Of a stretch of 64,000 bases of DNA, positions 33,631-36,375 are shown one piece after another (position 1 is the first letter of the stretch; each line of letters begins with the position of its first letter). This stretch comes from Shinella yambaruensis (lineage in GTDB: Bacteria; Pseudomonadota; Alphaproteobacteria; Rhizobiales; Rhizobiaceae): the NCBI RefSeq assembly GCF_022899355.1, contig NZ_JALJCK010000005.1:186001-250000 (forward strand), given 5' to 3'. Position numbers and translations under genes: made by a program. Under the pieces are notes generated by a model, which ran no database searches, was not told the DNA's origin, and saw nothing but the letters and a program-made list of their open reading frames with translations.

Positions 33631-34734
33631 CTACGCCTCGATCTGCACGTCGCCGATGGGCCGAGAGCAGCAGGCGAGAATGTAGCCCTCCTCGATCTCG
33701 TCGTCGAGGATGCCGCCATTGTGGCGCATGTCGACCTCGCCCGAGACCTTCATGACCCGGCAGGTGCCGCACAGGCCACCCTCGCAGGCTGCGCCGATGC
33801 GCACGCCGGCAGCGCGGGCCGTCTGCAGGATCGTCTGGCCCGGCGGACATTTGGCGTCCTTGCCGGCCATGGTGAAGGTGACGGTCGCAACGGCGTTGGC
33901 ATCCACCTCCTGCTCGCCGGCACCGGCACGGATGGCGATCTCCTCGGGCGCGGGGGCGGCGGCCGGCTGGAAGCTCTCCTCGTGGTAACGCTCCATGTTG
34001 AAGCCGCAGACCTTCAGCATGTCGCGCACGCCGCGCATGAAGGGTTCCGGGCCGCAGCAGAAGACGGTGCGCTCGCGGAAGTCGGGTGCCAGAAGCGAGA
34101 GACGGGCGGCGTCGATGCGGCCGCGCAGGCCGTGCCAGCCGTCGCGCGGATTGTGCCCTTCCACGACGAAGCCGAGCGCCAGCTTCGGCATCTGCGCGGC
34201 GAGGCATTCCAGCTCCGCCTTGAACAGAAGGTCTTCGGGCTTGCGGGCACAGGTGACGAAGGCGACGTCGGACTGCGGTGCGCAATCCGACATCCAGCGC
34301 GTCATCGACATCATCGGCGTGACGCCGGAGCCGGCCGAGATGAAGAGGTATTTTTCGGCGGGATAGCGCACGAAGGAAAAGTCGCCGAGCGGACCGAAGG
34401 CCTTCAGCCGCATGCCGGGGCGCAGGGTGTCGAACATCCAGCGCGTGCCGATCGAGTTCTTCTGCGCCTTCACCGTCACGGAAACGGAGAAGGGGCGCGA
34501 GGGCGTCGAGGAGAGCGTGTAGGTCCGCATCACGGGCTCGTCTTCCGACACCGGCAGTTCCAGCGTGACGAACTGGCCCGGCAGGTAGCGGAACCAGTTG
34601 TCGCGATCGGAGCGGAACGTGAAGGTCATCACGTCCGATGTCTCCACCGTGGCGGCGATGCATTCCAGCATGTGCTGGCGATCGTTCCACGGATGAAGCT
34701 CGTCGAAGTGGCGGAAATGGCTGGCGATCGTCAT
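33631..34734 (-). CDS. gbcB: Reductase subunit of Rieske demethylase, GbcB-like
   Basis: The 367-residue protein passes electrons from NAD(P)H through FAD and a plant-type 2Fe-2S centre to a Rieske oxygenase. The flavin site is MRTYTLSSTPS near residue 69, the nucleotide site is FISAGSGVTPMMSM near 130, FCCGPEPFM is near 230, and the C-terminal ferredoxin domain has CEGGLCGTC plus a later Cys in ACCSRP. This domain order matches glycine betaine or stachydrine demethylase reductases. It starts one base after the oxygenase stop codon (TGACATG), so the two are coupled. Confidence 0.85.
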   Translation of the reverse strand: MTIASHFRHFDELHPWNDRQHMLECIAATVETSDVMTFTFRSDRDNWFRYLPGQFVTLELPVSEDEPVMRTYTLSSTPSRPFSVSVTVKAQKNSIGTRWMFDTLRPGMRLKAFGPLGDFSFVRYPAEKYLFISAGSGVTPMMSMTRWMSDCAPQSDVAFVTCARKPEDLLFKAELECLAAQMPKLALGFVVEGHNPRDGWHGLRGRIDAARLSLLAPDFRERTVFCCGPEPFMRGVRDMLKVCGFNMERYHEESFQPAAAPAPEEIAIRAGAGEQEVDANAVATVTFTMAGKDAKCPPGQTILQTARAAGVRIGAACEGGLCGTCRVMKVSGEVDMRHNGGILDDEIEEGYILACCSRPIGDVQIEA

Positions 34735-34735
34735 G

Positions 34736-35980
34736 TCAGGCCACCCGCGAGAGCGGCTTCCTGCCGCCGTCGAGCCGGTCGATCATGAAATTCGCATACC
34801 ATTCGACGAACTGCATGACGCCGCCCTCGTCCTCCGGCGAATAGGGGCCGGGCTGGTAGGCCGGCGAGCGGATGCCGAAGGCGTTTTCCTCGACGATCCG
34901 CCGGTCCTGATCGTTCGTCTCGGTCCAGACATGGGTGAGCTCGTCCAGACGGTAGTCGACCCCCTCGACGGCGTCCTTGCTGACGAGCCATTTCGTCGTG
35001 ACCTGCGTCAGCTCGGGACCGAGCGGCAGGACGCGGAAGGTGATGGCGTGATCGGCGAGCACATGGTTCCATGTCGTCGGATAGTGGAAGAGCAGCAGCG
35101 TGCCGATGTGGCTTTCCAGCACCTCATTGGATAGGGGGCGCTGGACGGCCCGGGCCCCGGACATGGTGTAGCTTTCGGCATCCTGGATGAGCGGCATGCG
35201 CGCGGCGCGGAACTGGCCGGTCGGCGACATCCTGAATTCGCTCGGCAGGCCCGCCGCCTCGCACTTTTCCCAGTGCGCGGCGATGACCGGATCGTCCTTG
35301 GCGCCCTGTACGCCCGTCGCAGTCGGCGCCTCGGGGTAGGTGCGGCAGAGTTCGGGATGGTTGGCCGCGCAATGGTAGCACTCGCGGTTGTTCTCCCAGA
35401 CGAGCTTCCAGTTGCCCTTCTCAATGATCGTGCTTTCGAAGGCGACCTTCGTCTCGCCGAGGCGATGGCGGGCGAGATAGGGCTCGACCGTGGCGCGGAA
35501 CGGCGCGAAATCGGGGGCTTCGTCGGCCAGGCAGAGGAAGATGTAGCCGCCGACGGTCTCGCAGTGCACCCGTTTCAGGCCATGCTGGCTCTTGTCGAAA
35601 TCCTCCGCCATGTGGCGGGCGAAGAGCAGCGAACCGTCCAGCTCGTAGGTCCACTGGTGGTAGGGACAGACGAGCTTGGCCGAGGAGCCCCTGTGCTGCG
35701 TGCAGACGCGCGAGCCGCGGTGGCGGCAGGAATTGTGCAGGGCGCGCACGGTGCCCGTGCGGTCGCGGGTGATAACCACGGGATAGTCGCCGATCTGCAC
35801 GGTGAAGTAGTTGCCGGCCTTCGGGATCTCGCAGTCATGGCCGACGAACAGCCAGTCGCGGTACCAGATCGTCTCCAGGTCCAGCTTGTAATGGTCGGGG
35901 TCGATGTAGAAGGCCTGCTCGAGGCTGTGGCCCTCGCGCCGGTTCTTGAGCTTGCGGAGCACGTCGCTGCGAATGTCCAT
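34736..35980 (-). CDS. gbcA: Rieske oxygenase, glycine betaine demethylase-like GbcA
   Basis: The 414-residue terminal oxygenase has a Rieske centre (SCRHRGSRVC and CPYHQWTY, residues ~84-112) and a mononuclear iron site in WENNRECYHCAANHPE near 200. This iron-site motif and the partner reductase resemble glycine betaine and proline betaine monooxygenases, which oxidatively remove an N-methyl group and release formaldehyde. The substrate is inferred. The ATG at 35980 has GAGGAT 7 bases upstream. A cobalamin riboswitch lies about 105 bases upstream on the same strand, so B12 likely controls this pair. Confidence 0.85.
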   Translation of the reverse strand: MDIRSDVLRKLKNRREGHSLEQAFYIDPDHYKLDLETIWYRDWLFVGHDCEIPKAGNYFTVQIGDYPVVITRDRTGTVRALHNSCRHRGSRVCTQHRGSSAKLVCPYHQWTYELDGSLLFARHMAEDFDKSQHGLKRVHCETVGGYIFLCLADEAPDFAPFRATVEPYLARHRLGETKVAFESTIIEKGNWKLVWENNRECYHCAANHPELCRTYPEAPTATGVQGAKDDPVIAAHWEKCEAAGLPSEFRMSPTGQFRAARMPLIQDAESYTMSGARAVQRPLSNEVLESHIGTLLLFHYPTTWNHVLADHAITFRVLPLGPELTQVTTKWLVSKDAVEGVDYRLDELTHVWTETNDQDRRIVEENAFGIRSPAYQPGPYSPEDEGGVMQFVEWYANFMIDRLDGGRKPLSRVA

Positions 35981-36084
35981 GCCGGATCCTCGGATTGCAA
36001 ATTGGGGATACGGCGCACGGAAGGAGACGGCGTCCGGGCGCAAGACGCACGGACTGCACGCTTCCCGGCCGCCCGCCGCAGCCA

Positions 36085-36263
36085 GTCACGATCGTTGCCC
36101 AAGGCTGGTTTCCGGGCTGAGGAGCGTCCTTGCGGACCGTCGCGGCGCCTTCCCGGACATCTTGTCCAGTGGCGTCCTGCCGCGTTTTCTCCAACACCGT
36201 TGCGGGGGCAGCGCCGGATTTCAACCGGCTTCCCAATTCTCCGCCTTTTCGGACGGCACCTCG
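36085..36263 (-). ncRNA. Cobalamin (B12) riboswitch
   Basis: Read on the minus strand, this segment shows the conserved cobalamin riboswitch blocks in order: GAGGTGCC near 36261; the core GGGAA, GGTTGAAATCC, CTGCCCCCGCAAC between 36235 and 36198; GCCACTGG near 36172; CCGGGAAG near 36155; and the B12 box CAGCCCGGAAACCAGCC near 36119-36103. It ends about 105 bases before gbcA. The TCCTC just before the B12 box could pair with the GAGGA ribosome site of gbcA, suggesting translational control. Boundaries are approximate. Confidence 0.88.
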
Positions 36264-36375
36264 AGTGTCCTTATCTAAGCGCAAGAATCGGCGAATGACA
36301 TGCCAGAAAGCGACATGCCATTCCGATTTGACGACAGGAGGAAAACAGCGAGAACCTGAACGGCTCTTTACAATA

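Follow-up and report, generated by a model that had tools for sequence, protein, structure and literature searches.

The window analysed here is a 64,000 nt stretch of the Shinella yambaruensis genome, the minus strand of which carries a cobalamin riboswitch followed by the genes for a Rieske oxygenase and a reductase. The features of this locus, in the order of transcription, are as follows:

36086..36278, minus strand: cobalamin riboswitch aptamer (RF00174; cmscan 109.1 bits, E 2e-26)
36067..36083, minus strand: putative regulatory hairpin immediately 3' of the aptamer core, with a 5-bp stem and the 7-base loop CGGCGGG
35987..35991, minus strand: probable Shine-Dalgarno sequence (GAGGA) of the oxygenase gene, read from the sequence
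34736..35980, minus strand: Rieske oxygenase, group Vb quaternary-amine demethylase (GbcA/Stc2-like), 414 aa, ATG at 35980
33631..34734, minus strand: GbcB-like reductase with FAD, NAD and 2Fe-2S domains (Pfam, NCBIfam), 367 aa

The identity of the riboswitch is certain. The aptamer is full length, covering model positions 1-189 of 189, its score compares with a gathering score of 31.5 bits, and no other Rfam match in the whole 64 kb window reaches the gathering score; a whole-genome covariance search returned it at the same place. The original prediction, which put the element at 36263-36085 on the minus strand, lay within 15 bases of this match, and its claim is upheld by the covariance model. 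The RNA is predicted to bind cobalamin and thereby change the expression of the oxygenase gene, from which it is separated by 105 bases. The reductase gene starts one base past the oxygenase stop codon, at a TGA-C-ATG junction, and the genes flanking the pair, a family 25 glycosyl hydrolase and a DUF6656 gene, point the opposite way.

The pair had been described as gbcA- and gbcB-like. A Rieske oxygenase, with Pfam Rieske and Ring_hydroxyl_A domains, and a reductase are indeed the next genes downstream; however, the former is not a GbcA orthologue, and both fall below the NCBIfam cut-offs, the oxygenase scoring 511.4 bits against the 670 of the GbcA model NF058607 and the reductase 386.1 bits against the 500 of the GbcB model NF058606. 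In a tree of 58 rows, including 32 from the window clade and nine GbcA members over the cut-off, the window clade and GbcA were each set off from the rest by a branch with 100/100 support, and the window oxygenase was 44-48% identical to the nine. The cut-off and the tree placement together rule out filing it as GbcA. Its clade is instead the sister of the Stc2 clade (99/97 support), lying outside the Stc2 clade itself, and its identity to Stc2, the stachydrine demethylase that is the closest characterised demethylase in the PDB (3vca and 4qup), is 57.5%, as against 46% for GbcA. The Rieske CxH/CxxH motif, the 2-His-1-Asp iron site, a Cys pair and the group Vb Asn are invariant in all 32 window-clade rows; according to passages of PMC7948474 and PMC10952381, it is this Asn that replaces the aromatic residue of group Va enzymes. 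Hence the ligands, the Asn and the position in the tree lead to the name GbcA/Stc2-like demethylase. GbcAB/BmoAB glycine betaine monooxygenases share the two-component oxygenase and reductase plan, the group Vb Asn and the catalytic residues with the window pair, but belong to their separate clade.

Of the 75 leaders having an exact B12 box, 74 have a hairpin with a CGGYGGG loop on the 3' side of the aptamer core. Its stem pairs were standard in 119 of 120 cases, taken over 24 distinct versions and including exchanges between G-C and A-U, whilst slid controls gave at most 50% standard pairs. As the loop of the window hairpin would be able to pair with CCCCCGC, a complementary and conserved stretch of the aptamer, the sequences suggest control of the kissing-loop type. 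There was no U-run 3' of the aptamer by eye in the window sequence, from which we infer that control acts at translation. In a second type of leader, represented by 30 sequences other than that of the window, the ribosome site lies inside a conserved hairpin (94.8% of cells paired) and a competing pairing is also present; as neither structure shows informative covariation in these 30 leaders, though both are well paired, the translational mechanism is best worded as a proposal. No clear alternative fold was found in the leader type to which the window itself belongs.

The riboswitch is conserved before close orthologues. All 20 close orthologue loci (at least 88% identity) carry it, and three of nine more distant loci do so; hence in the latter set, with the window's own copy included, the count is four of ten. 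In a scan of named genomes, from which 80 loci with 76-94% identity were kept, the riboswitch motif was detected in 70, although a few of these positives were weak and one of the ten negatives (L243) had merely 41 bases of upstream sequence. Nineteen of the 80 share their oxygenase sequence with earlier loci and are therefore not independent. Rfam was applied to 19 of the 80 together with Rhizobium sp. CB3090 (L190), and matched 15 of these 20, including Ensifer adhaerens, Rhizobium tropici, Sinorhizobium medicae and Mycoplana azooxidifex; L190 and four motif-negative loci gave no match. The riboswitch scores 100.3 bits in S. meliloti Ak57, where the gene order is that of the window, and 99.9 bits in Sinorhizobium sp. 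K101, whilst none was found upstream of the orthologues in Paracoccus versutus and Agrobacterium pAt1D1609a. Remnants of the element precede the oxygenase genes of Rhizobium freirei PRF 81, R. lusitanum SEMIA 4060 and Rhizobium sp. CB3090 (L255, L257 and L190, respectively), in which parts of the B12 box and of the hairpin are left and the 5' half of the aptamer has been lost or has decayed. The S. meliloti Ak57 record CP090106.1, labelled pSymB, is 3.7 Mb long and contains the gene neighbourhood of the window; it may in fact be the chromosome, wrongly labelled.

Eleven RF00174 matches are present in the 6.87 Mb Shinella genome. By position and domain search, the genes downstream of these copies include metE, class Ib nrdEF, MetH and BluB, with a BtuB-like receptor, a BtuC-type ABC permease and SBP_bac_5 importers as further targets. 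Both metE and nrdEF encode B12-independent isozymes. The same genome has five MTTB-family genes, one of which adjoins a gene for a B12-binding protein; the best model for the latter is MtgC, at 211.4 bits and so below the cut-off of 370, and DUF1638, MTHFR and pterin methyltransferase genes lie close to the two. In passages of Mausz et al. (2025, PMC12478193), the set of MtgC, MTTB, DUF1638, MTHFR and pterin methyltransferase is presented as a B12-dependent betaine demethylase, and mtgBCDE of S. meliloti is reported together with a cobalamin operon. The MtgC-like and MTTB genes would be the B12-dependent counterpart of the window pair: MtgBCDE, termed both a betaine demethylase and a split methionine synthase in the same source, shares a genome with the pair and is co-distributed with the riboswitch, but, unlike the pair, represents a B12-dependent route.

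Were the oxygenase a backup for MtgBCD, the riboswitch would be expected solely where MtgC is kept. In a sample of 247 Rhizobiaceae genomes, 98 had an oxygenase match at E 1e-140 and 181 had MtgC at E 1e-40. Four of the former (G022, G133, G141 and G285) were set aside as Stc2-type, their best matches being 56-58% identical, and 17 further Shinella genomes were added to the 94 left, such that 111 were counted. Both riboswitch and MtgC were found in 79 of these and neither in 25, with five having the riboswitch only and two MtgC only (Fisher p 9e-18, a value that ignores kinship). Hence MtgC is present in 79 of the 84 riboswitch-positive genomes, and the riboswitch in 79 of the 81 genomes with MtgC, whilst it is absent from 25 of the 30 lacking MtgC. 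Rfam underlies these assignments for 52 of the 79 double positives, all five riboswitch-only genomes and all 27 negatives, the other 27 being called from the motif scan only; motif-scan positives put to Rfam were confirmed in 11 of 11 cases in one batch and 16 of 16 in another, and the two riboswitches that the scan missed (G101 and G105) were recovered by Rfam. By genus (n = 47), 32 have both in all genomes, ten have neither, two contain both kinds, one has the riboswitch only, one has MtgC only, and Shinella combines double positives with riboswitch-only genomes. Eleven independent contrasts for the riboswitch, drawn on an oxygenase gene tree in which some branches are weak, comprised nine concordant with MtgC, none discordant and two ties (sign test p 0.004). 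The riboswitches of the five genomes lacking MtgC score 56.3-64.8 bits, under every one of the 52 Rfam-scored double positives, the lowest of which has 68.8 bits and the next 86.1.

Absence of the riboswitch does not reflect a general loss of B12 use. RF00174 copies occur elsewhere in all 34 genomes examined, including the 25 with neither riboswitch nor MtgC, and MetH, sought with a query that itself reaches 1743 bits against the MetH model, was found in 30 of 32 genomes, all 25 double negatives among them. Consequently, neither B12 use nor B12 regulation has been lost along with the leader, and general loss of B12 use is rejected as the cause. The two genomes without MetH are the two MtgC-only exceptions, G145 and G216 (genus g126). 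Both encode MtgC and the oxygenase, with no riboswitch and, at E 1e-100, no match to MetH; in this genus MtgC may be used to make methionine. Eighteen of the 25 double negatives have CobN, which marks B12 synthesis; this counts against B12 synthesis as the driver, though the other seven lack it.

Taken with the gene contents described above, this distribution makes it probable that the oxygenase pair is a riboswitch-repressed, B12-independent backup of MtgBCD, most likely for glycine betaine, that is turned on at low B12. When B12 is plentiful, the riboswitch would repress the oxygenase and reductase, and MtgB, MtgC and MtgD would transfer the methyl group of betaine to tetrahydrofolate. When B12 is scarce, MtgC would not be charged and the riboswitch would stop hiding the ribosome site, such that the oxygenase could demethylate betaine using O2, with the release of formaldehyde. 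The metE/metH logic would thereby be carried over to osmolyte breakdown. Cobalamin riboswitches usually act as OFF switches, and the proposed direction of response, with betaine demethylation turned on at low B12, fits this behaviour. The likeness to metE and class Ib nrdEF, both of which have leaders with a riboswitch of this RNA family in the Shinella genome, extends to the proposed logic, in which a B12-free enzyme is repressed when B12 is available (for metE/metH, see the relevant passages of PMC9600662). The difference lies in the target, here a catabolic osmolyte demethylase, and in the two routes diverging in both chemistry and the fate of the methyl group, which would become methyl-tetrahydrofolate through MtgBCD and formaldehyde through the oxygenase. 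The control of B12-independent isozymes had also been named originally as a normal use of such riboswitches, and it is this option that fits better, given that the riboswitch follows MtgC. Comparative evidence lends good support to the proposed role as a backup switch within the Rhizobiaceae, and less outside the family. Counting against it are the two genomes of genus g126 with MtgC and no riboswitch, the five with the converse, the P. versutus orthologue, which has the best betaine context and no riboswitch, and the Agrobacterium pAt1D1609a orthologue, which likewise has none.

The nature of the substrate is a separate question. The backup logic could apply unchanged to proline betaine (stachydrine) or to a different quaternary amine on which one of the five MTTB-family methyltransferases acts, an alternative that we regard as possible but doubtful. 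The proximity of the oxygenase to Stc2 rather than GbcA, as well as the number of MTTB copies in the Shinella genome, speak for it, and a comparison of active-site residues did not separate betaine from stachydrine use, as the catalytic residues are common to both kinds of enzyme. However, Rfam detected no riboswitch before any of seven Stc2-clade or adjoining genes (L039, L144-L147, L176 and L181; L164 was left out), six of which are in genomes with MtgC, and the one genome carrying both oxygenase types (G012) has the riboswitch solely before the window-type gene. The riboswitch is also kept in G002 and G034, in each of which the single MTTB gene adjoins mtgC. Furthermore, the P. versutus orthologue, 70% identical to the window oxygenase, is surrounded by genes for a GlxA-family regulator, ETF, folD, a large FAD oxidoreductase, purU, a formaldehyde dehydrogenase and a BCCT transporter, which we take to be a set for betaine breakdown. 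This neighbourhood favours glycine betaine without proving it, and glycine betaine appears the likelier substrate.

The original prediction ascribed a different purpose to the switch: low B12 would raise the use of betaine, yielding glycine and one-carbon units for 5-aminolevulinate, corrin methylation or methyl supply. Passages of PMC3766115 indicate that cobalamin riboswitches often control genes of B12 supply, and a B12 production medium for S. meliloti contains betaine, according to part of PMC5948670. Yet this explanation predicts a linkage to B12 synthesis, whereas most of the double negatives keep CobN and all of them keep MetH, and it offers no reason for the link between riboswitch and MtgC; we consider it improbable. 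Least credible of all, and in our judgement very improbable, is that the riboswitch has merely been inherited as a relic, or acts only weakly, with its co-occurrence with MtgC reflecting genome lineage only: the survey is correlative, its contrasts are drawn on a tree of the oxygenase gene and kinship makes genomes non-independent, but joint absence recurs, including once within each of two genera (g72 and g131), riboswitch scores are lowest where MtgC is absent, compensatory change preserves the hairpin and the same genomes retain other B12 riboswitches.

Outside the Rhizobiaceae, the oxygenase pair as a backup of MtgBCD was put to a prediction made in advance, namely that MtgC would be present in genomes with the riboswitch and mostly absent from those without it. 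Among 385 class-level genomes, a homologue at E 1e-120 was found in 13 besides Shinella's own, and in seven of these it lies downstream of a riboswitch. The first half of the prediction held, with MtgC in all seven riboswitch-positive genomes; the second half failed, as MtgC is also present in four of the six riboswitch-negative genomes and missing only from two. Consequently, the riboswitch is absent from four of the 11 MtgC-positive genomes, in each case before a gene of another clade. In a later tree, two of the four (G515 and G576) grouped with the Stc2 clade and two (G808 and G735) fell in a distant clade, whilst G812, the riboswitch-negative member of the window clade, is without MtgC. 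Placement in other clades could thus account for the four exceptions, albeit after the fact. Three riboswitch-bearing genes, 47-52% identical to that of the window, form a separate clade outside the group of the window and Stc2 clades. A wider reading, for and against which we find the case evenly balanced, is that across the Alphaproteobacteria the riboswitch toggles the fate of betaine methyl groups on at least two separate clades of Rieske demethylase, one being the window clade with its neighbours and the other this second clade, and is kept only while MtgC is present; B12 would then choose between a corrinoid route that conserves the methyl groups and a route that depends on oxygen and releases formaldehyde.

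If the oxygenase pair is such a backup, a further isozyme pair would be added to the cobalamin riboswitch regulon, in which we know of no earlier pair from osmolyte catabolism, and vitamin supply in soil or nodules would decide whether betaine methyl groups are conserved or burnt. Searches of the open-access literature, covering titles, abstract beginnings and some passages, gave no paper in which a cobalamin riboswitch is tied to a Rieske or betaine demethylase, and neither 'betaine' nor 'Rieske' appears in the main text of PMC3766115, a survey of riboswitch regulons. In passages of PMC12478193, GbcAB figures only as an alternative pathway, and the sole mention of 'riboswitch' is in the title of a reference. 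The same source assigns to MtgBCDE the betaine-demethylating route beyond Bmt in S. meliloti, which was inferred from mutants; the riboswitch-bearing oxygenase orthologue of this species would be a further candidate for that route, acting at low B12.

Several other loci were noted in the Shinella genome. A second, distant Rieske oxygenase (approximately 32-35% identical) is located between two cobalamin riboswitches (G000:C4:107968-109128; L042:15918-17147), although it can be rejected as a target, as it sits behind neither of them and just before the one preceding metE. The riboswitches at G000:C30:92961-93181 and C22:12920-13153 (L045 and L046) precede ABC importer genes accompanied by genes for SAM-dependent methyltransferases; for one of the latter the best match, under the cut-off, is to the corrinoid-protein-associated model CpaM. 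The riboswitch at G000:C32:356626-356815 (L048; 84.7 bits) precedes an alcohol-dehydrogenase-like gene. Finally, one MTTB gene (G000:C28:260274-261764; L058) lies beside FAD/GCV_T proteins resembling dimethylglycine dehydrogenase and another (G000:C7:26966-28474; L056) beside a creatinase-type peptidase, contexts that suggest additional corrinoid-dependent routes for quaternary amines.
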